DNA from: Runella rosea
Lineage (GTDB): Bacteria; Bacteroidota; Bacteroidia; Cytophagales; Spirosomataceae
DNA: 64,000 nucleotides
Assembly (NCBI RefSeq): GCF_003325355.1
Contig: NZ_CP030850.1
Span: forward strand, 2,604,001-2,668,000
Direction of reading: 5' to 3'
Shown: positions 41,696-60,270 of the stretch, piece by piece
How the letters are laid out: every line of letters starts with the position of its first letter
Numbering within the stretch: position 1 is the first letter of the stretch
The notes under the pieces: model-generated
Told to the model about the DNA's origin: nothing
What the model saw: only the letters and a program-made list of their open reading frames with translations
Database searches by the model: none
Position numbers and translations under genes: made by a program

Positions 41696-41975
41696 ACGTT
41701 AAGAATCAAAGACTTATGTTCTTTCAAAATACCGTAAAACAGCTATTTTTTCCAAATCATATCTTTGTAACTTACTTAACGGTTCACTGCGTGTCAGAAC
41801 ATTTCAGGTCAGCTTTAAAAATCAGACATCCAAACCAATGGCAGAGTTATTCAAATGGAGTAATGAAACCGTACAATTTACTTTTTGCAGCATCTCGCAA
41901 AGTCATTGATTTGTATTTTTTGGTAATTTTTGAGAGATTATGATTTCTATCAAAAACGATTTAGTGTTTTGTGTT

Positions 41976-51687: not shown

Positions 51688-51737
51688 AAATAGCAAAAAT
51701 TCGCTATTTTTTGAGGAGAACCGAGGGCGTAGTTTTG
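51688..51737 (+). promoter_or_regulatory. Inverted-repeat operator and promoter of the sensor operon
   Basis: AAATAGC (51688-51694), 8 nt, GCTATTT (51703-51709), then 20 nt, then an exact -7 box TAGTTTTG (51730-51737). The same 22-bp core is found at 55268-55289. The repeat abuts the -33 position, the usual place of a class II activator. Confidence 0.72.
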
Positions 51738-51779
51738 CATTAAAACACGATGTTGCTGACATTTATCCAAAATACTGTA

Positions 51780-52706
51780 ATGAAAAATTATATTCCTTTA
51801 ATCTTTTTAATGTTTAGTTCACTTATACTATTGGGGCAGGATAGCCTAACCTTGAGTTATAAAACCTTGGGATTACATTCAACCCGTTCCGAAATAGATG
51901 TACCTGTTGTTTTTCGAAATGGAATAAAAGCTGTGTCTGTCCCAAGTGTTTATACACTTTTAGGGACCCAGCCATTCGCTAACAATCTGGTTCAGGAGTT
52001 TTCAAGAAAATTTCCCAATTTCGATTCGGTAGATTTACCAGATTGGTTATTAGCGCAATTTGAGCAGACAAAGGATCAATATCAGGGTATCCACCTGTTT
52101 TTTGGATTACACGACAACCAATTGCAGGTTATGATTTTCGAAACCAAAGTAGATACATTAGAAGTTAATAAATATTTAGAAAAAGTATTTACTCATCAAA
52201 TTCCGGATAACGGTGCTGATGCACGTCACTATAAAGCAAATTATAAATGGGCTTATTTTTGGAATAATGAAACGAGAACATGGAAGTTGGTAGAAGACGA
52301 ATACAATACCATTACTATTCCCGGAGGTCATCCACCCGTTCAAAAAGTTTTTAAAGGAAAGCTAAAAAGCGATTTTTTAACAATGAGAGGCAACTTTCTT
52401 TTTCGTACTAAAGGTTATTATATTTCAAAAGCCTTATTGTTTGATATTTGGAATAATTCTGCTATTCCATCTTTAACTATATTTCTGGGACTGGCAGGCA
52501 ATAAAGTTACCCTTTTTTTACCAACATTCCCCAAAGTAGATTTGAATAGTACCCGGACAGAAATAAATACAAGCATTGATTCTTCCAGAGATTCATCCAG
52601 ACAAAATGAAAGCGTCCATATTCGTTTTCTTACCTATGTCACTCATTTAATGGGGACAAATCATCTAACAGTCCGAACCTGTCCCAGTTACTGCGGTGAT
52701 AACTAA
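51780..52706 (+). CDS. Hypothetical exported protein, first gene of the sensor operon
   Basis: 308 aa from the ATG at 51780, chosen because it opens a good signal peptide (KNYIPLIFLMFSSLILLGQ); a longer frame begins at 51750. The mature part is AT-coded, mixed alpha/beta (YTLLGTQPFANNLVQEFSRKF, LFFGLHDNQLQVMIFETKVD, WKLVEDEYNTITIPGGHPPVQ), with no family recognised. It lies directly behind the operator and 10 nt before the membrane-protein gene, and probably senses or transmits an envelope signal to the kinase downstream. Confidence 0.72.
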   Translation: MKNYIPLIFLMFSSLILLGQDSLTLSYKTLGLHSTRSEIDVPVVFRNGIKAVSVPSVYTLLGTQPFANNLVQEFSRKFPNFDSVDLPDWLLAQFEQTKDQYQGIHLFFGLHDNQLQVMIFETKVDTLEVNKYLEKVFTHQIPDNGADARHYKANYKWAYFWNNETRTWKLVEDEYNTITIPGGHPPVQKVFKGKLKSDFLTMRGNFLFRTKGYYISKALLFDIWNNSAIPSLTIFLGLAGNKVTLFLPTFPKVDLNSTRTEINTSIDSSRDSSRQNESVHIRFLTYVTHLMGTNHLTVRTCPSYCGDN

Positions 52707-52716
52707 AATATAAATA

Positions 52717-53397
52717 ATGGACTTTAAATACTTATTGATTGACCTTTCAAATTATATAGGTGCTGTTCCCTGTATGATAGGCATCTATTGTTGGAATAAT
52801 TTAACAAGTCTAATGAAGGGTTATCTGATAGGTGTCATTATTAATGCCTGCATTGGAATACTATCAATAATCAGTGCCAAATTGGAGATAAACAATCATT
52901 TTGTTTTTCCTCTCTTAGCTATAAATACAGGCATTTTGTACTGTTTTATGTTTTGGCATTTGTCAGAAAACAAAATAATTCGCTACTCAATTACAGTATT
53001 TTATTTATTTTTTATCTTGTATATCTTTTACGATCTTATCACCAATAATATTAAATATTTCAACTTTCAATTGTTCACATTAATAGATATTTCAAGCCTT
53101 ATTTTATCCGCTATTTGGTTAAACAAAATAATATCCTCACAGTTTAATATTACTAAAAAACCTCTGCTTTGGCTCTTGTTTTCTATATTTTCAGGGGCGT
53201 TATATGATGTGTTATTGACGCAACTAAGTGGGAAAATGGCCCTATATTTTACAAATAAATGGCAAGATATATTCGCATTGAACATCAGCCCGATTTTTCA
53301 AATAATAAAAATGAGCATTTTGGCCTATGCCTTTTACTTGGCTCGCCATCAAAAGTTTAACTCCAACAAAATCCCCGATTTAGAACAGGGCCGATGA
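52717..53397 (+). CDS. Hypothetical multi-spanning membrane protein of the sensor operon
   Basis: 226 aa with about six to seven membrane helices (IGAVPCMIGIYCW, GYLIGVIINACIGILSII, HFVFPLLAINTGILYCFMFW, YSITVFYLFFILYIFYDLI, LFTLIDISSLILSAIWL, LLWLLFSIFSGALYDVLL, IIKMSILAYAFYLAR). No catalytic motif is seen. The DNA is much more AT-rich than the rest of the window. Its stop overlaps the kinase start by 4 nt, so translational coupling is expected. It may be the sensory partner of the kinase, an inference from position. Confidence 0.75.
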   Translation: MDFKYLLIDLSNYIGAVPCMIGIYCWNNLTSLMKGYLIGVIINACIGILSIISAKLEINNHFVFPLLAINTGILYCFMFWHLSENKIIRYSITVFYLFFILYIFYDLITNNIKYFNFQLFTLIDISSLILSAIWLNKIISSQFNITKKPLLWLLFSIFSGALYDVLLTQLSGKMALYFTNKWQDIFALNISPIFQIIKMSILAYAFYLARHQKFNSNKIPDLEQGR

Positions 53398-54467
53398 AGC
53401 ATTTTTTTACTTTAATTGCTTGTTCTATATGGATTGGTCATGCATTTGCCCAAAATATCCAATTTACTTCGTTTACGGCTACTAATGAGTTCCAAGATTC
53501 AAGCTACAACATTCATAAACCCATTGCACTCAATTTTAGGGAAACCCATATTTTAGCGAGTTTCAAAGATGCGACTGACAGTCTCAATGCCAAATACGCT
53601 TACTGTTTGAAGGGTCTAGATGGCAAATGGCATCCTAATGGCAAGGGCGAATCCGTCAATTATGTAAATCTTTTCGGCGGCGATTATGAATTGCAGGTCA
53701 AAAATCTCAACTATCCCAATAAAATCATTTCTTTAAAATTTCATTTAGAAGAAGCCTTCTGGCAAAAAAACTGGTTTATTCCCATGCTTGCTGCCTATGG
53801 GTTATTGGTTGTAGGCGTCATTTTTTATTTCATCAGAATGTACAGATTGCGCGGTCAAATCCGGCTCCAGCAGGTTCGCAACGAAATCGCTTCCGACCTC
53901 CACGACGACGTAGGCAGCACGCTGTCCAACATCAGTTTTTTGGGAGAAATGGCTAAAATGAAACTTGTAAAAAAACCCGAAGAGGTATTGCCCATTCTGG
54001 AACGAATCATGGAGGAATCCAAAGAAATGGTTCAAACCATGCGCGGAATGGTATGGACCATTCAACCCGATAACGACAGGGCCGTTGATTTCATTGATAA
54101 AATACAGGCCTTTGCGACAGAAATGCTCCAAAACCGCGAAATAGCATTGCAATTCAGCAATGAAATTCCTGAAAAACAACTGCTTACCATTGAGCAACAG
54201 CGAAATTTGTTTCTTATTTTTAAAGAACTTATCCACAATATTGCCAAACACTCAACTGCCACAAGGGTTACTGTTTCTCTCAAAAAACACGAACATTGGC
54301 TATGGGCGAAGATAACCGACAACGGAAGCGGTTTTGACATGACCCAACGCTCCGAAGGAAACGGCTTGAGAAACCTGCAACAACGCATCACACAGTTGGA
54401 GGGGAAAATGGAAATAGAATCAGAAGTCGGCAAGGGTACGGTGACCAAAATGATGATACCGCTCTGA
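53394..54467 (+). CDS. Sensor histidine kinase (HisKA_3 type) with reduced periplasmic domain
   Basis: 357 aa. Signal peptide ends near residue 20 (WIGHAFAQ). Residues ~45-118 look like one Y_Y_Y beta-sandwich (RETHILASFKDATDS..YAYCLKGLDGKWHPNG..VNLFGGDYELQVKN). One span follows (~127-148). The dimerisation motif is NEIASDLHDDVGSTLSNI with phosphoacceptor His170, and the ATPase domain has FKELIHNIAKHS, ITDNGSGFD and GNGLRNLQQRI. Related Bacteroidota kinases carry a long beta-propeller before Y_Y_Y; here it is absent. The partner regulator gene is 99 nt downstream. Confidence 0.92.
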   Translation: MKHFFTLIACSIWIGHAFAQNIQFTSFTATNEFQDSSYNIHKPIALNFRETHILASFKDATDSLNAKYAYCLKGLDGKWHPNGKGESVNYVNLFGGDYELQVKNLNYPNKIISLKFHLEEAFWQKNWFIPMLAAYGLLVVGVIFYFIRMYRLRGQIRLQQVRNEIASDLHDDVGSTLSNISFLGEMAKMKLVKKPEEVLPILERIMEESKEMVQTMRGMVWTIQPDNDRAVDFIDKIQAFATEMLQNREIALQFSNEIPEKQLLTIEQQRNLFLIFKELIHNIAKHSTATRVTVSLKKHEHWLWAKITDNGSGFDMTQRSEGNGLRNLQQRITQLEGKMEIESEVGKGTVTKMMIPL

Positions 54468-54489
54468 AAATCACTTAAATTCGCTATTG
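54468..54489 (+). promoter_or_regulatory. Degenerate copy of the operator upstream of the response-regulator gene
   Basis: The right half AAATTCGCTATT (54477-54488) is kept; the left half reads AAATCAC instead of AAATAGC. Exactly 20 nt later comes GACTTTTA (54510-54517), a poor -7 box. It starts at the base after the kinase stop codon. Confidence 0.5.
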
Positions 54490-54512
54490 TCTTTCCAAAT
54501 TGAATATAAGAC

Positions 54513-54540
54513 TTTTACGCCGTTGGGACAGGGCGTAAAA
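54513..54540 (+). other. Hairpin in the leader of the response-regulator gene
   Basis: TTTTACGCC (54513-54521) pairs with GGCGTAAAA (54532-54540) around a 10-nt loop, followed by TGCTCCCCTTTTT. It could be a partial terminator after the kinase gene or a leader structure controlling the regulator. Confidence 0.5.
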
Positions 54541-54566
54541 TGCTCCCCTTTTTATCTGCTGAAAAT

Positions 54567-55199
54567 ATGATCAGAGTAGCCATTTTTGACGACAACAGCG
54601 CTTTTGCCGGCAGTTTGGAACTGCTCCTGAAAGACAGTGACGATTATGTACTCGCCGGCGCTTTCCCCAATGCCCTCAACGCCCTGCAAAAAGTGGCCAA
54701 ATCAAAACCCGATGTAATCATCATGGACATCAAAATGCCCGAAATATCAGGCATTGAGGCCGTGCAGATCATCAAAAAAGAACACCCCACTATCCAAATC
54801 ATGATGCAAACCGTCTTTGAAGACGACGATAAAGTGTTTGCGGCCATTTGTGCCGGCGCATCAGGCTATATTTTAAAGGGAACTTCGCCGGGCAAAGTTT
54901 TGGAGGCGATTGCCGAGGTCTACACGGGCGGCTCGCCCATGAGCCCAAGCGTAGCCCGCAAGGTGCTGACCTTTTTCCGGTCTCATCAAACCGTTCAAAC
55001 AGAGTTTTATGATTTATCGAAGCGCGAAAAAGAAATCTTAAAATACCTGGTCGAAGGTTACAGTTACAAAATGATCGCGGAGGCCTGTTTTATCAGTTTT
55101 AATACGGTCAATGCCCACCTCCGCAAAATTTACGAAAAACTTCACGTTAATTCTTCTCAGGAAGCCATTTCGAAAGCTTTAAGGCAAAAGCTGATCTAG
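54567..55199 (+). CDS. NarL/FixJ-family response regulator
   Basis: 210 aa. The ATG at 54567 (MIRVAIFDDN) is chosen; the frame extends to an ATG at 54540 that lies in the hairpin. The receiver domain shows the acidic pair FDDN, phosphoacceptor Asp54 in IIMDIKMPE, the Thr of MQTVFED and Lys in YILKG. The C-terminal LuxR-type HTH is DLSKREKEILKYLVEGYSYKMIAEACFISFNTVNAHLRKIYEKLHV. It is the likely target of the kinase upstream and the best candidate to bind the AAATAGC/GCTATTT repeats, one of which precedes it. Confidence 0.94.
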   Translation: MIRVAIFDDNSAFAGSLELLLKDSDDYVLAGAFPNALNALQKVAKSKPDVIIMDIKMPEISGIEAVQIIKKEHPTIQIMMQTVFEDDDKVFAAICAGASGYILKGTSPGKVLEAIAEVYTGGSPMSPSVARKVLTFFRSHQTVQTEFYDLSKREKEILKYLVEGYSYKMIAEACFISFNTVNAHLRKIYEKLHVNSSQEAISKALRQKLI

Positions 55200-55223
55200 C
55201 CTCACCGTTCTTTTGTCTTCTAT

Positions 55224-55258
55224 AAAAAGCCCTCTCCTTATAAAGCAGAGGGCTTTTT
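55224..55258 (+). terminator. Intrinsic terminator of the response-regulator gene
   Basis: AAAAAGCCCTCT (55224-55235) pairs with AGAGGGCTTTTT (55247-55258), 24 nt after the stop. Confidence 0.92.
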
Positions 55259-55267
55259 ATTGTTTGA

Positions 55268-55317
55268 AAATAGCAAAAATTCGCTATTTCACCGGCCTCT
55301 CATTCATCGCAACTTTG
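55268..55317 (+). promoter_or_regulatory. Second perfect operator copy, before the LytTR gene
   Basis: AAATAGC (55268-55274), 8 nt, GCTATTT (55283-55289), identical over 22 bp to 51688-51709, also preceded by TTTGAAA-like text. After 20 nt comes CAACTTTG (55310-55317), a one-base variant of TAnnTTTG. Confidence 0.7.
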
Positions 55318-55354: not shown

Positions 55355-55696
55355 ATGAATCCACTTCCATTTATCAACAGCCCCATTCTCGACTTGGTAA
55401 GGCAATTACCCAAAGACGATATCATGTGGTTGGAAGGTGACCGCAACTACACCTATATCCACTTTTGCAACGGCGGGAAAATGATTTTCAGCAAAACACT
55501 GCAACTCATAGAAGCTCAATTGCCCAACGACGATTTCAGCAGAATCAACAAAGGGGCAACGGTCAACCTACGGTTTATCAAAACCATCAACGTACGCCAA
55601 AAGCACCTTCAACTATCCTGCGGCCTTACGCTGCCTATCTCACGACGTCGATTGCCCGGCGTAAAAACATGGTGGCGAGGCAATAAATCCCGATGA
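55355..55696 (+). CDS. Stand-alone LytTR DNA-binding protein
   Basis: 113 aa: a short leader, then a LytTR domain (DIMWLEGDRNYTYIHFCNGGKMIFSKTLQLIEAQLPNDDFSRINKGATVNLRFIKTI, LPISRRR). No receiver domain is attached, so its activity must be set by its own level or by a partner. It is controlled by the same operator as the sensor operon, which would make it a second tier in the circuit. It precedes the surface-protein genes at 55747 and 57961, its possible targets. Confidence 0.9.
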   Translation: MNPLPFINSPILDLVRQLPKDDIMWLEGDRNYTYIHFCNGGKMIFSKTLQLIEAQLPNDDFSRINKGATVNLRFIKTINVRQKHLQLSCGLTLPISRRRLPGVKTWWRGNKSR

Positions 55697-55746: not shown

Positions 55747-57900
55747 ATGAAAAAATTACTTTTACTGCTTTTCGAGGTGATTTTCATTTCAACAATGGCA
55801 CGCGCTCAGTGGAACTCCAACCCCACCAACAATATAATAACCGCCGCAAATTTCTCACAGAAAAACCAAAAAATGATCCCTGACGGCAGCGGAGGCGCTA
55901 TCATTGTCTGGGAAGATGACCGTAATACCAATACGACGAATACGGATCTGTACGCCCAGCGAATCAACGCCAACGGAGTGGTGCAATGGCCGGTGAACGG
56001 TGTAGCCATCAGCAATTACTCCGGTAACGACCTCTACCCTCAACTTACTTCCGATGGCGATAATGGAGCGATCATCACTTGGCAACGCGATGGCGATATC
56101 TATGCACAACGCATTAATGCGAGCGGGGCAGTGCAGTGGACAGCCAATGGAATAGCCGTTTCGGCAGCAACAAATACTCAAAATTTCCCTCAATTGGTCA
56201 GCGATGGTAGTGGTGGGGCCATCATCACTTGGGAAGATAATCGCGGCGGAATCTTCCCGCCAAACGGCCCCGATATTTATGCTCAGCGGATTAATGCAGA
56301 CGGTACAGTGCCGACGCCGTGGCCTGCCAATGGTGTGCCCATTGCTGCAGCCGGATTATCACAGCTTAGTCCTCAACTCGTTTCCGACAACAGTGGCGGC
56401 GCCATCATTACTTGGGTAGACAGTCGCAGCGGCACCACCGTCACGGATATCTATACCCAGAGAGTCGATACAGACGGTGACGTACAATGGCCTGCCAACG
56501 GAGTGCCTGTTTGTGAAGCAGCAAACGGACAATATCTTCCCAAAATAGTTACCGATGGTTTCAACGGAGCCATCATTGCCTGGGACGACAACCGTAACGG
56601 CAACTATGATATTTACGCGCAACGAGTGAACTCAGGGGGTACAATGCAATGGACGGCCAATGGTACTCCCGTATGTAATGCCGGCAATAATCAGGAAAAA
56701 AGCCATATGGTCAGTGATGGCAGCGGCGGGGCCTATTTGGTTTGGGAGGACCGGCGCAATCATATAGCTTCTCCCAACAATTATTATTTTTCCGATATCT
56801 ACCTGCAGCGTATCAATGCATCGGGTGTAGCTCAATGGGCCGCCAATGGACTGGTTATCTGTAATCAACTTGGTTACCAGACACTTCCCAAATTAACTGC
56901 TGACGGTACTGCGGGCGTGATCGTTGCCTGGGCGGATGCCCGCGAGTATTATGATACAGGCATCAATCCGGATATATATGCTCAGAAAGTCAATGCGGCG
57001 GGAGCAATTCAGGGAATTTCGGATGGGAATCCCGTTAGCAGCGCAATTAATGCGCAAACCACTCCCGAACTTGTCAGTGATGCCTCAGGCGAGGCTATTA
57101 TTTCTTGGGCTGACCTGCGCAACGGCAACAGTTTAGATATTTATGCCTCTCAGACCTCCTTTGCGCCGGCCTGCTCGGCTTCTGCACCTACTTCAGTATC
57201 GCCGTCTTCTCAGGCGGTTTGTTCCGGCGAAGCCGTAACTCTTTCGGCTTCCTGTGCGGCGGGGTATACGGTACAATGGTATGAAGGCACTACCCTGCTC
57301 GGTACCGGCAGTCCGCTTGCTTATTCTGTTACATCGAACGTTTCTATTTATGTGAGTTGCAAAAACAACGCCTGTGAGTCAGAGCCTGACACTATCAACC
57401 TAACTCTCTCCAACTATTTGAGTTATGCCTTTATTGGCGGCGACCTCAACAACGACGCAGTACTTACCTTTCATGGCTGCCCTTCCGGAACCGTTCATTG
57501 GAGCGTGTATCAGTCCGAATCCAGTGATGAAAACGGTCCCATTTTTACGTTAAAGGATTCTATTACAGGAAATCCCGCTACAATGACCTTAAAAGGGATT
57601 TACCGCCTGTCGGCTACCTGCTCCAACTCCGCGTGTGCTGCGCCGCCTGCACCCGTTGAGGTATACAATTGTTACTGGATCTATCATACCCTGCTGTCTC
57701 CCAACGACAATTACAACCAAGGGCTGCATATCATTCAGTCAAGTTATGGCGGCACTATTGAGGCAACCAATAAAGTAATGGGTACTTCACGAACGTGGTA
57801 CGAAGCCCAAAGCATTGAATTGAAACCGGGATTTGAGGTCAATGCCAAACCCAACGGAGCGGTATTTACCGCCAAACCCGGCGGGTGTTTGGGTTCTTAA
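55747..57900 (+). CDS. Large secreted repeat protein with coathanger-type C-terminus
   Basis: 717 aa. Signal peptide ends near ARAQ (residue 20). Residues ~25-460 hold about eight repeats of ~50-60 residues built on SDGSGGAIITWED.R....DIYAQRINA.G..QW.ANG, the pattern of a beta-propeller-like surface protein. An Ig-like unit follows (PSSQAVCSGEAVTLSASCAAGYTVQWYEGTTLLGTGSPL). The last ~65 residues (GGTIEATNKVMGTSRTWYEAQSIELKPGFEVNAKPNGAVFTAKPGGC) match the 3-coathanger-stack end common in secreted Bacteroidota proteins. No classical T9SS type A or B sorting domain is seen. Confidence 0.85.
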   Translation: MKKLLLLLFEVIFISTMARAQWNSNPTNNIITAANFSQKNQKMIPDGSGGAIIVWEDDRNTNTTNTDLYAQRINANGVVQWPVNGVAISNYSGNDLYPQLTSDGDNGAIITWQRDGDIYAQRINASGAVQWTANGIAVSAATNTQNFPQLVSDGSGGAIITWEDNRGGIFPPNGPDIYAQRINADGTVPTPWPANGVPIAAAGLSQLSPQLVSDNSGGAIITWVDSRSGTTVTDIYTQRVDTDGDVQWPANGVPVCEAANGQYLPKIVTDGFNGAIIAWDDNRNGNYDIYAQRVNSGGTMQWTANGTPVCNAGNNQEKSHMVSDGSGGAYLVWEDRRNHIASPNNYYFSDIYLQRINASGVAQWAANGLVICNQLGYQTLPKLTADGTAGVIVAWADAREYYDTGINPDIYAQKVNAAGAIQGISDGNPVSSAINAQTTPELVSDASGEAIISWADLRNGNSLDIYASQTSFAPACSASAPTSVSPSSQAVCSGEAVTLSASCAAGYTVQWYEGTTLLGTGSPLAYSVTSNVSIYVSCKNNACESEPDTINLTLSNYLSYAFIGGDLNNDAVLTFHGCPSGTVHWSVYQSESSDENGPIFTLKDSITGNPATMTLKGIYRLSATCSNSACAAPPAPVEVYNCYWIYHTLLSPNDNYNQGLHIIQSSYGGTIEATNKVMGTSRTWYEAQSIELKPGFEVNAKPNGAVFTAKPGGCLGS

Positions 57901-57960
57901 CTTCTTTGAAAAAAACATCATAAAACCTTATTCATAAGTATTTATAACTGTCCAATATCC

Positions 57961-60270
57961 ATGAAAATCATTCTCCAACTTTCTGCCTTATTATTTACCA
58001 TTATGGTATTTTTATATGGCTGTAATGACAAAAAAGCCCCTGCTTCTCCCAGTGCTGTTCCAACGTTAGGGACAACCACATCGGGGGCCATCACCGAAAA
58101 CTCCCTTGCCATAAGCAGTGCCATTCAGACCAATGGCGAAAACTCAATCATCCAACATGGCTATGTATATTCAGAAACGAATAAAACACCCACCGACGCC
58201 GACAGCAAGATCACTTTAGGAGTAAATGCAGGACCCTTTCCGGCCACTTTTTTCGGTACTATTACGGGCTTGAAAGCCAACACTACATACCATATACGCT
58301 CTTATGCCACCAACAGCAACGGTATTGGTTACGGCTCAGCAATCGAAGCAAAAACCTCCGTAGAGACCAAAGCACCAACCTTAGAAACAGCACCGAGTGT
58401 TGAAGAAGTGACCACCGGCTCTTTTAAATTAACCGCTTCCATCAAAGACAATAATGGCAACCCTATTTCGCAATATGGCTATGTATATTCGGAAACCAAT
58501 AAAGTACCCACCATGGAAGCCGACAGCAAAACAGAAATGGGTGCTCACGGCGGTCCCTATCCGGCTTCTTTTTCAGGTACGATTATCAATCTTAAAGCCA
58601 ATACCCTTTATTATGTACGGCCTTATGCTGCCAACAGCAAAGGAACCGGCTATGGACCGGCAGCGGAACTAAAAACCAAGGCGGAGCTAACCGTTCCGAC
58701 AATGGAAGCCAATGCTACAGTTGAAGAAATAAAAACCAACTCATTTAAGGTAACAGGCACAATTTTGAACAATGGCGGTTCAGTGGTTATTCAACATGGA
58801 CACGTTTACTCTTCTACGGATAAAAACCCCACAACTACCGGCCCTAACACCCAATTAAAGGCTAACAACGGGCCTTTTCCAAGTAAATATGTGAGCACCA
58901 TAACTAACCTGTCAGAAGGAGTAACCTACTTTGTGCGTTCGTATGCTACCAATGAGAAAGGCACTGGTTATGGTACTGCAATAGAAGTAAAAACGGTAGC
59001 AACTTCAGCTCCGATATTGGCCGCCAACATGGTTATAGATGCCATTACTTATAATTCCATCAGCGTTAGCAATACTATCAATTCCGATGGCAATTTGCCC
59101 ATTACCCAACATGGCCATTTACTGTCCGTTAAAAATAACCCAACCATTGAGACGCTTTCGGGCAATGGGGTAAGGACACAAAAGGGAGAGTATACAGGAG
59201 CTTTTCCAAAACCGTTCAGCAGTACATTTTCTACCGGGCTTGACGAAAATACCACTTATTACCTGCGCCCATATGCCATCAATGCCAAAGGAACCACTTA
59301 TGGTACTACGGTTCCGATCAAAACTCAGGTGGCAACTCCAACTTTTACAAAGCCGACCAATTTTGAAGACGTTCCTGTTTATAGTATTATTTTAGAAACC
59401 TCCACCTCAACCATCGATGATGGCGACACTGACAGCCCGGTTTCGGTAGAATTCAACCCCAATATGGGAGGTACAGAAAATACCTTCTTCTTAGACCTCG
59501 GCAAGTTATCTTTTGGCGGCAGCAATGATTATCCGGCGCATAGCGAAGATGACCGGGAAAAAGGGCAAGTACAAAAGTATTATATCGCTACTCCCGCAGT
59601 AAAAACAATCAAGGATATCATTCATTTAACCCTGCGGATTCACGGAGATGACGGATGGGCTATTTCAAAGATTAGATTGATTGTCAATGGGTATGAACTT
59701 TTTACAAAATCGTACCAAAATCATTGGATTGAAGATGACAAAAGCAGTAAAAATCTCCCTACGCTGACCATTCCTTACAATGAATTACGTACATCAAAAT
59801 GGTCGTATGCCGGAGCTCCGAGCATACATATAGCTTCTCAACAAATCAAAGCGCAGGAGTTGGTACGTCTGATGGAAGGAATCATGGGCGACGAATTGGA
59901 AAGCGGAGGCTACAAATCAGGATCAGTGGGTGGTCTGTTTAACGGCACCTTGGAATGGGATGACACTGAAGCTGTTAAAATAGTGCCCAACAATAATTCA
60001 GTCTATGTCCGATTTGACTTTGCCCTGAAACTAAAGCGGAAAAATACTACAGATACAGATGGTACTTTCAGCTTTGCCCTATGGAGAGAGTGCCAAAATG
60101 GCTCAGTTACCTTTAAAATTACAGATTTACAATCCACTAATAATAATTTTCCGGCGGGCTCTTTCCGAAAAAACAACATCGAAAACGCAATAAAGGCTAT
60201 TCTTACGCGAACCCTAAACATTCCCTGCAAAGCAGCCTTCAACTCAGCCGGCGATCTTATTTATTGGTAA
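57961..60270 (+). CDS. Lipoprotein with four fibronectin-like repeats and a unique C-terminal domain
   Basis: 769 aa. Lipobox FLYGC (Cys21). Residues ~38-455 are four ~100-residue repeats of the form TGSF.L.A.I..NGG..I.QHGYVYSETNK.P........G..G.FP..F..TI..L..NT.Y.VR.YA.NSKGTGYG.A.E.KT, typical of Bacteroidota fibronectin-III-like surface repeats. Residues ~465-769 are different (LHLTLRIHGDDGWAISKIRLIVNGYELF, FNGTLEWDDTEAV, FDFALKLKRKNTTDTDG), with no family recognised; the first part recalls PLAT-like sandwiches. The gene lies 60 nt after the repeat-protein gene. Confidence 0.82.
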   Translation: MKIILQLSALLFTIMVFLYGCNDKKAPASPSAVPTLGTTTSGAITENSLAISSAIQTNGENSIIQHGYVYSETNKTPTDADSKITLGVNAGPFPATFFGTITGLKANTTYHIRSYATNSNGIGYGSAIEAKTSVETKAPTLETAPSVEEVTTGSFKLTASIKDNNGNPISQYGYVYSETNKVPTMEADSKTEMGAHGGPYPASFSGTIINLKANTLYYVRPYAANSKGTGYGPAAELKTKAELTVPTMEANATVEEIKTNSFKVTGTILNNGGSVVIQHGHVYSSTDKNPTTTGPNTQLKANNGPFPSKYVSTITNLSEGVTYFVRSYATNEKGTGYGTAIEVKTVATSAPILAANMVIDAITYNSISVSNTINSDGNLPITQHGHLLSVKNNPTIETLSGNGVRTQKGEYTGAFPKPFSSTFSTGLDENTTYYLRPYAINAKGTTYGTTVPIKTQVATPTFTKPTNFEDVPVYSIILETSTSTIDDGDTDSPVSVEFNPNMGGTENTFFLDLGKLSFGGSNDYPAHSEDDREKGQVQKYYIATPAVKTIKDIIHLTLRIHGDDGWAISKIRLIVNGYELFTKSYQNHWIEDDKSSKNLPTLTIPYNELRTSKWSYAGAPSIHIASQQIKAQELVRLMEGIMGDELESGGYKSGSVGGLFNGTLEWDDTEAVKIVPNNNSVYVRFDFALKLKRKNTTDTDGTFSFALWRECQNGSVTFKITDLQSTNNNFPAGSFRKNNIENAIKAILTRTLNIPCKAAFNSAGDLIYW

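Follow-up and report, generated by a model that had tools for sequence, protein, structure and literature searches.

In Runella rosea, a gene cluster encoding a sensor histidine kinase, a NarL-type response regulator and a lone LytTR protein carries three copies of the inverted repeat AAATAGC-N8-GCTATTT, one of them degenerate, each exactly 20 nt (N20) before a -7-like promoter box. These three sites are very probably operators of the cluster's own NarL-type regulator, from which it would activate transcription in class II fashion. A number of sister regulators share the N20 spacing with different site letters and, in sequence comparisons in which ancestry was partly controlled, these letters tend to change together with the DNA-reading residues of the regulators. 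The cluster lies in a stretch of 64,000 nucleotides (NCBI RefSeq assembly GCF_003325355.1, contig NZ_CP030850.1, positions 2,604,001 to 2,668,000 of the forward strand), referred to here as the window; coordinates are those of this 64-kb window unless assigned to the genome or to another locus, and genes were annotated from a listing of open reading frames (ORFs) and with Pfam.

All three sites and their boxes are on the plus strand. Operator 1 (51688..51709, AAATAGCAAAAATTCGCTATTT) precedes the sensor operon and is followed at N20 by the box TAGTTTTG (51730..51737), which fits the Bacteroides consensus TAnnTTTG (PMC7366714). Operator 3 (55268..55289, AAATAGCAAAAATTCGCTATTT), identical to operator 1 over its 22 bp, precedes the LytTR gene and has the box CAACTTTG (55310..55317) at N20. 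The degenerate operator 2 (54468..54489, AAATCACTTAAATTCGCTATTG), in which the left half is altered and the right half ATTCGCTATT is kept, precedes the regulator gene and has the box GACTTTTA (54510..54517), again at N20. Direct reading thus confirmed what a first-pass annotation of this DNA had described, that is, two identical 22-bp sites and one degenerate site, each 20 nt before a -7-like box, in front of the sensor operon, the NarL-type regulator gene and the lone LytTR gene. Strict 22-bp inverted repeats (as defined below) followed by N20 and nAnnTTTG occur exactly twice on the two strands of the window, as operators 1 and 3, while other spacings average 0.80. With up to three mismatches to the repeat the window holds 10 matches against 4.75 expected, a number reached in 3 of 100 shuffles.

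The same spacing recurs among sister regulators. A first set of 75 regulator loci (the window, its orthologues and sisters at 42-57% identity), falling into 46 clusters at 80% identity, was scanned from 200 nt before to 400 nt after the regulator gene for 22-bp stretches pairing at 6 or more of the 7 outer positions or at 8 or more of 11, followed by a spacer of variable length and nAnnTTTG. Sites at N20 were found in 14 of the 46 clusters, compared with 2 at N19 and 3 at N21; the other spacings from 5 to 35 had a mean of 0.39 (maximum 2), and 60 dinucleotide shuffles a mean of 0.33 (maximum 2). Five of the 14 belong to the window's own family, without which N20 is found in 9 of 41 clusters. 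Two further sets came from one search of 247 genomes of the class, as the 28 loci returned and then the next 60 in list order; the third set leaves out places in three genomes (labeled here G000, G012 and G054) and one partial match, and a few loci of these later sets are from genera of the first, so that the sets are not fully independent. N20 was found in 5 of 28 loci in the second set (N19, 1; N21, 0) and in 4 of 60 loci in the third (N19, 3; N21, 0), with a mean of 0.18 and a maximum of 1 at the other spacings in each. Control DNA away from regulators (406 kb) gave no clear peak, with 10 sites at N20 and 2 to 12 at other spacings. That a number of sister regulators share the spacing goes beyond the first-pass annotation. 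The letters of the sister operators differ and include AAATCATT..AATGATTT, AACCTA..TAGGTT, TCCCC..GGGGA, CACC..GGTG and TCACATC..GATGTGA.

The sites are also kept next to orthologues of the regulator, which were sought in 59 relatives and in named genomes; besides the window, a regulator of 65-88% identity was considered close. Six such loci were found, in G002 (88%), G006 (78%), the metagenome-assembled genome of Spirosoma sp. 48-14 (77%), Larkinella punicea (77%), Fibrella (G020, 73%) and G034 (65%). Sites are present in 7 of 7 loci with a close regulator orthologue (the window and these six, 65-100% identity), which bears out the conservation beside orthologous operons that had been proposed beforehand as a check. 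Each orthologous locus has one to three of three positions occupied (before the operon, before the regulator gene and after the regulator gene); the G002 contig does not reach the operon start, and G034 yielded just the site after the regulator gene. Counterparts of operator 1 occur in Larkinella, in Spirosoma 48-14 (with one mismatch in the right half) and, at N21, in Fibrella. The site before the regulator gene has a left half 1-3 letters off AAATAGC in 5 of the 5 loci having it (the window, G002, G006, Spirosoma 48-14 and Larkinella), and operator 3 has counterparts with an intact right half in G002, G006, Fibrella and G034 and weaker counterparts in Spirosoma 48-14 and Larkinella. One G002 box lacks the A (GTCTTTTG). 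Over 12 orthologue-type sites at N20, a set that includes G012 and leaves out the second G002 site and three weaker Spirosoma and Larkinella sites, the information per base was 1.2 bits for the left half, 1.9 for the right half, 1.4 for the box and 0.36 for the spacer, the values for right half and box being inflated because both were used to select the 12 sites. Among 150 genomes of the family, 19 have a match to the repeat within one mismatch, and 6 of these 19, counted from the flanks shown (one further place in G006 had no readable flank), have TTTG at N20: the window's genome, four genomes with an orthologue of at least 65%, and G012, which is without such an orthologue.

The first-pass annotation had proposed that the NarL-type regulator is the binder and that the system is autoregulated. 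The first proposal gains support from the co-occurrence of sites and orthologues and from the covariation of site letters with recognition helices. Autoregulation is probable, as the sensor operon and the regulator gene each have a site in front of them and relatives carry sites at the corresponding places. It is very unlikely that the LytTR protein binds the sites instead and feeds back on the sensor operon. This protein is encoded beside operator 3, and a LytTR gene lies near a site in three other loci, directly after it in G002 and G034, as in the window, and at a greater distance in G006, where what looks like a broken secreted-protein frame lies in between. However, the sites persist in the Fibrella, Larkinella and Spirosoma loci, where no LytTR gene was seen beside them: the gene at that place encodes a 385-amino-acid (aa) protein without a Pfam match in Fibrella and a lipoprotein with FG-GAP repeats in Larkinella, and the Spirosoma genome has no plausible same-strand gene within about 1.4 kb of the site. 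Among four loci compared, a close counterpart of the window's LytTR protein (79%) is found only in G002. Since a LytTR gene is near a site in only 4 of 7 loci and the regulator is present in all, the NarL-type regulator is the likely binder. In addition, N20 did not clearly stand out at the loci of the 29 other LytTR genes of the genome (count 3; mean 1.63, maximum 5), and the element is an inverted repeat, whereas the LytTR protein AgrA binds direct repeats centered near -60 (PMC4227749). AgrA shares its LytTR domain with the lone downstream protein here and differs from it in being a response regulator, as the lone protein has no receiver domain. Support for LytTR as a constant second regulatory tier is weak: a LytTR gene follows a site in the window, G002 and G034 (and, further on, in G006), but this arrangement is not constant across the seven loci.

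Under a wider rule, 31 of the 71 clusters of the first two sets have a site, and in these covariation was scored as the mutual information of each site position with each helix residue; the residue-base code was noticed on the same 31 clusters that were used to measure it. The top pairs were residue 182 with position 8 (family-wise p 0.002), residue 183 with positions 4 and 5 (0.002 and 0.006), residue 186 with position 7 (0.024) and residue 178 with position 9 (0.026), and positions 4, 5, 7 and 8 fall inside the heptamers described below. By total score over the 171 variable columns of the whole protein, residue 183 ranked first and residue 182 sixth, and the best single pairs in the whole protein involved residues 182, 151, 183, 186 and 178. 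All 7 clusters with an aromatic residue 183 have G at position 4, compared with 2 of the 24 clusters without one (Fisher 1.4e-5, ignoring ancestry). Pairs of regulators illustrate this: TVHWH (L226) with AGTCCACCAATATTGGTGGGTT versus TVHTH (L255) with AACTCACCAATATTGGGGATGT, and TVRFH (L284) with CCCCTACATCATGATGTAGTTG versus TVRSH (L238) with AAATCACATCATGATGTGATTG. On a receiver-only tree of 50 rows, the aromatic trait changed 6 times (one row, L079, being mislabeled) and G at position 4 changed 5 times. No aromatic-183 regulator with a site was found in the third set, where 10 non-aromatic ones all have A at position 4, and among 15 loci with aromatic 183 and no site near the regulator, a regulator-strand scan of the whole locus found no strict site. 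We take residues 179, 182 and 183 to correspond to DegU K194, K197 and N198, by an alignment anchored on the TV motif, and NarL K188, V189 and K192 presumably contact bases at the corresponding places. In a DegU model based on the DosR-DNA complex, the recognition helix enters the major groove and K194, K197 and N198 reach bases (PMC9263151). Two more distant loci, L143 (Sphingobacteriales bacterium 44-61, 43%) and L141 (Aquiflexum, 49%), have sites with the letters TAGC..GCTA, similar to those of the window, and the helices TVSNH and TVNNH.

With regard to promoter architecture, the Bacteroides housekeeping promoter combines a -7 TAnnTTTG with TTTG near -33 (PMC7366714). The -7 boxes here fit or nearly fit this consensus; the operator, in contrast, occupies the place of the -33 element, and TTTG was found at the -33 distance (17-23 nt before the box) in none of the 27 promoters that have a strict operator in the three sets. 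In 7 of these 27, TTG is present at that distance, formed by the operator's own end. The absence of TTTG makes these promoters look dependent on help. If the box is placed at about -12 to -5, the operator would span about -54 to -33, with its center at -43.5; an overlap with the -33 position, next to which the first-pass annotation had placed the activator, is supported by the N20 excess in all three sets, and a spacing locked to one value across sister regulators suits contact with the polymerase. The same regulator could bind and repress, its dimer covering the -33 region in negative feedback, since an operator overlapping -33 would also be a possible place for a repressor. We consider this unlikely, given that TTTG is missing at the -33 distance in 27 of 27 promoters and that the spacing is fixed at one value across sister regulators, while repressor sites usually tolerate more placements. 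The -7 box begins with T in 8 of 27 operator sites versus 99 of 227 other boxes from the same regions, a weak trend only, which likewise speaks against repression.

Without the three outer bases on each side, the operator is a 16-bp element, TAGCAAA-AA-TTCGCTA, with A/T flanks, and by inspection fits the geometry of NarL operators, which are inverted heptamers with a 2-bp gap (7-2-7). NarL-type class II activation and autoregulated two-component systems are known. In the model proposed here, the Y_Y_Y sensor kinase would phosphorylate the cluster's own NarL-type regulator, and the phosphorylated dimer would bind the 22-bp inverted repeat such that the promoter-proximal half replaces the -33 box, 20 nt from the -7 box. 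From about -43.5 the bound dimer would then recruit housekeeping polymerase, as in class II activation. The whole sensor operon would be amplified from operator 1, the regulator gene would have an internal promoter of its own at operator 2, with its changed left half, and operator 3 would drive a neighboring unit that differs between species and here comprises LytTR and secreted proteins; positive feedback on sensor and regulator would result. While the sites, their spacing, their conservation with the regulator and the covariation are seen in the sequences, we infer that the regulator binds, that it needs phosphorylation to do so and that it activates, as well as the numbering from the start site and the step through LytTR.

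A scan of the whole 7.16-Mb genome, a check also proposed beforehand, did not reveal a large number of scattered copies and supports a small, mostly local regulon. The exact repeat occurs three times, as operators 1 and 3 and at genome position 2311877; at the last, neither strand has a box at N19-21, and it was rejected for this reason. The repeat followed by N20 and nAnnTTTG had 13 matches with up to three mismatches, while the reversed control had 5; operators 1 and 3 are the two that match exactly, and operator 2 falls outside the three-mismatch limit. The next-best match, with two mismatches, is AAATACCTATTGTTAGTTATTT-N20-GAATTTTG at 477388 (477388-477437 of the genome; L015 and L367, around 1501), which starts 49 nt after another NarL-type regulator gene (Response_reg and GerE, helix TIETH) and precedes a secreted-protein-like gene, the same layout as that of operator 3; we read it as a putative operator of that other regulator. 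The remaining ten places have three mismatches. The right half with its box (ATTCGCTATT-N25-TTTG) occurs exactly twice in the genome and 7 times at one mismatch, of which one is operator 2 and the other 6 are without a matching left half (0-3 of 7 pairs). Looser genome-wide counts are uninformative (repeat with up to two mismatches, 80 places versus 52 for the reversed control; half-site with TTTG, 82 and 67 versus 46 and 44 for controls). Given so few matches, the regulon, if the motif defines it, would consist of this cluster and perhaps one more gene.

Several observations weigh against the reading of the sites as operators of the cluster's own regulator with a generally shared spacing. The strict rule leaves 32 of 46 clusters, 23 of 28 loci and 56 of 60 loci without a site; as most sister regulators are without one, the rule may cover part of the subfamily, or sites may lie elsewhere. 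In the third set N19 is nearly as frequent as N20 (3 and 4), and when boxes ending in A were also allowed the counts were 5 and 4; with the loosest repeats, N20 reached 14, N19 12 and others up to 12. As for the covariation, columns outside the recognition helix take part in it, with residues 197 and 198 second and third and receiver residues 56 and 105 fourth and fifth by total score, and residue 151 in the second-best single pair; since receiver columns also covary with operators, ancestry contributes. The receiver-only tree contains 2 independent supported pairs, with an average agreement of 1.8 of 2, too few for significance. Operator 2 on its own is within chance in the window, although it is credible because orthologous loci keep counterparts. 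That the sites are chance or hairpin sequence and not operators deserves hardly any credence: this degenerate copy and a look-alike, a long perfect palindrome with AAATAGCGAACGTTCGCTATTT beside a phosphoenolpyruvate-carboxykinase-like gene (named by eye) in two other genomes (L091 and L092, around 1501) that is terminator-like, favor such a view, but operators and boxes are conserved while the 20-nt spacer is not, and the N20 peak appears in three sets. Perfect palindromes in G014 and G071 were rejected as terminator-like.

Two further places weigh in the same direction. At genome position 3855062 (3855062-3855111; L373, around 1501), one of the three-mismatch places, the sequence AAATACCTGAATTCCGGTATTG-N20-GATATTTG has good inverted symmetry as well (6 of 7 and 9 of 11 pairs) and precedes an unrelated gene, with no regulator gene within 1.5 kb; it may be a further target, a site of another regulator, or chance. 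In G012, a genome of the same genus as the window, operator 1 and its box are kept (L253, G012:C50, 3961-3982) next to the same gene, which resembles that of an apurinic/apyrimidinic (AP) endonuclease, and a search of G012 for close orthologues found regulators of at most 56% and sensors of at most 38% identity. Past the operator the DNA no longer matches the window, and the end of the contig is reached 393 bp from the first base of the site; we take the site to be a remnant of a lost operon, and another binder could also account for it. The G012 site, together with the related letters (AAATACC..), N20 and box at 477388 and 3855062, the former beside a NarL-type regulator gene, would fit a scenario in which a different regulator of this genome uses the sites and the cluster is one of its targets. 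There is only a slim chance of this, slimmer still than of binding by LytTR, as exact matches with a box lie only at this cluster's two operators and as sites accompany the regulator gene in 7 of 7 orthologous loci from several genera.

If the cluster's own regulator is the binder, the system resembles NarL of Escherichia coli, one of its solved relatives, in its Response_reg and GerE domains, in what looks like a 7-2-7 inverted geometry and, by the numbering adopted above, in a center near -43.5. It differs from NarL in having a Bacteroidota -7 box rather than -35/-10, other half-site letters, A/T flanks outside the 7-2-7 core, and exact sites at its own cluster only. By sequence, the nearest full-length relative of the regulator with a solved structure is VraR; VraR and the DegU/DosR-type regulators belong to other phyla with other promoter boxes. 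Among the papers listed in searches of the open-licence literature, none was recognized as dealing with a shared operator-to-(-7) spacing, its residue-base code or these loci. We favor, with moderate confidence, the wider proposal that a broad Bacteroidota NarL-type subfamily follows one grammar, operator-N20-nAnnTTTG, and has diversified its regulons via a few helix residues and matching letters. If this is true, the targets of many uncharacterized two-component systems could be read from sequence alone, possibly with a simple code in which, for example, an aromatic residue 183 reads C/G at position 4 and small residues read T/A. The regulator query matched 50 places in this genome and from 20 to at least 52 in each of 12 genomes of the same genus searched. 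With a fixed spacing and a code that can be read in part, testable predictions of regulons would follow from promoter sequence, and the sister regulators and their operators would offer a clean case of coevolution under the Bacteroidota -33/-7 polymerase.

The AP-endonuclease-like gene, on the minus strand, is followed by the plus-strand cluster of ORF A, ORF B, the kinase, the regulator, LytTR and two large genes. The sensor histidine kinase (53394..54467, plus strand) has the Pfam domains Y_Y_Y, HisKA_3 and HATPase_c. The NarL-type response regulator (54567..55199, plus strand; 210 aa; start taken from the orthologue alignment, with a listed alternative at 54540) consists of a receiver and a GerE (LuxR-type) DNA-binding domain (Response_reg, E 1.3e-23; GerE, E 1.1e-18). 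Residues D8, D9, D54, T82 and K104, which we take to be the phosphorylation site and switch residues of the receiver family, are invariant across 5 aligned regulators. Between the regulator gene and operator 3, a terminator-like hairpin (55224..55258, plus strand; 12-bp stem, 11-nt loop and T run) was read by eye, its loop being beyond the limit of 8 of the automatic hairpin scan, and suggests that the LytTR gene is transcribed separately. The lone LytTR DNA-binding protein (55355..55696, plus strand) has 113 aa (Pfam LytTR, E 5e-15). The probable downstream genes of its unit (55747..60270, plus strand) encode a 717-aa secreted-looking protein and a 769-aa fibronectin-type lipoprotein-like protein, and would be co-transcribed with LytTR, as the gaps are short.

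ORF A (51780..52706, plus strand; 308 aa) was given the start at a signal-peptide-like N terminus; an alternative start at 51750 would give 318 aa. ORF B (52717..53397, plus strand; 226 aa) is mostly helical and probably a membrane protein. Pfam searches gave no match for either ORF, and a homology search with ORF B returned two entries only. The structure model of ORF B is helical at low confidence (mean predicted local distance difference test score, pLDDT, 62.4), and that of ORF A is too poor for use (mean pLDDT 44.7). ORF A has a counterpart in Fibrella (28%, E 1e-39), and its alignment with the correspondingly placed ORFs of Spirosoma, Larkinella and G034 gave 18-22% identity; ORF B has counterparts in Fibrella (34%, E 1e-34) and G034 (E 7e-5). 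In alignments, ORFs A and B share only 18-33% identity with the sensor-adjoining ORFs in Fibrella, Larkinella, Spirosoma and G034. The sensor orthologue in G006 (L077 8069-11128, minus strand) is a 1019-aa kinase with a Reg_prop propeller, compared with the short Y_Y_Y kinase and ORFs A and B of the window, an apparent swap of the sensing part with regulator and operators unchanged. Rfam and tRNA scans of the whole window returned nothing.

In G002, the genes after LytTR (L076 1079-2689, minus strand) encode an N-acetylmuramoyl-L-alanine amidase and a caspase-domain protein. Another candidate, AAATAGCTAATTTTCGCTATTG, was rejected since it has no box at N20; it is present in two genomes of a single genus (L084 and L086, around 1501), next to a gene named by eye as asparaginyl-tRNA-synthetase-like. 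Within the window itself, a one-mismatch copy of the repeat, AAATACCGTAAAACAGCTATTT, is present at 41727-41748 and is followed by TATCTTTG after about 11 nt rather than 20.

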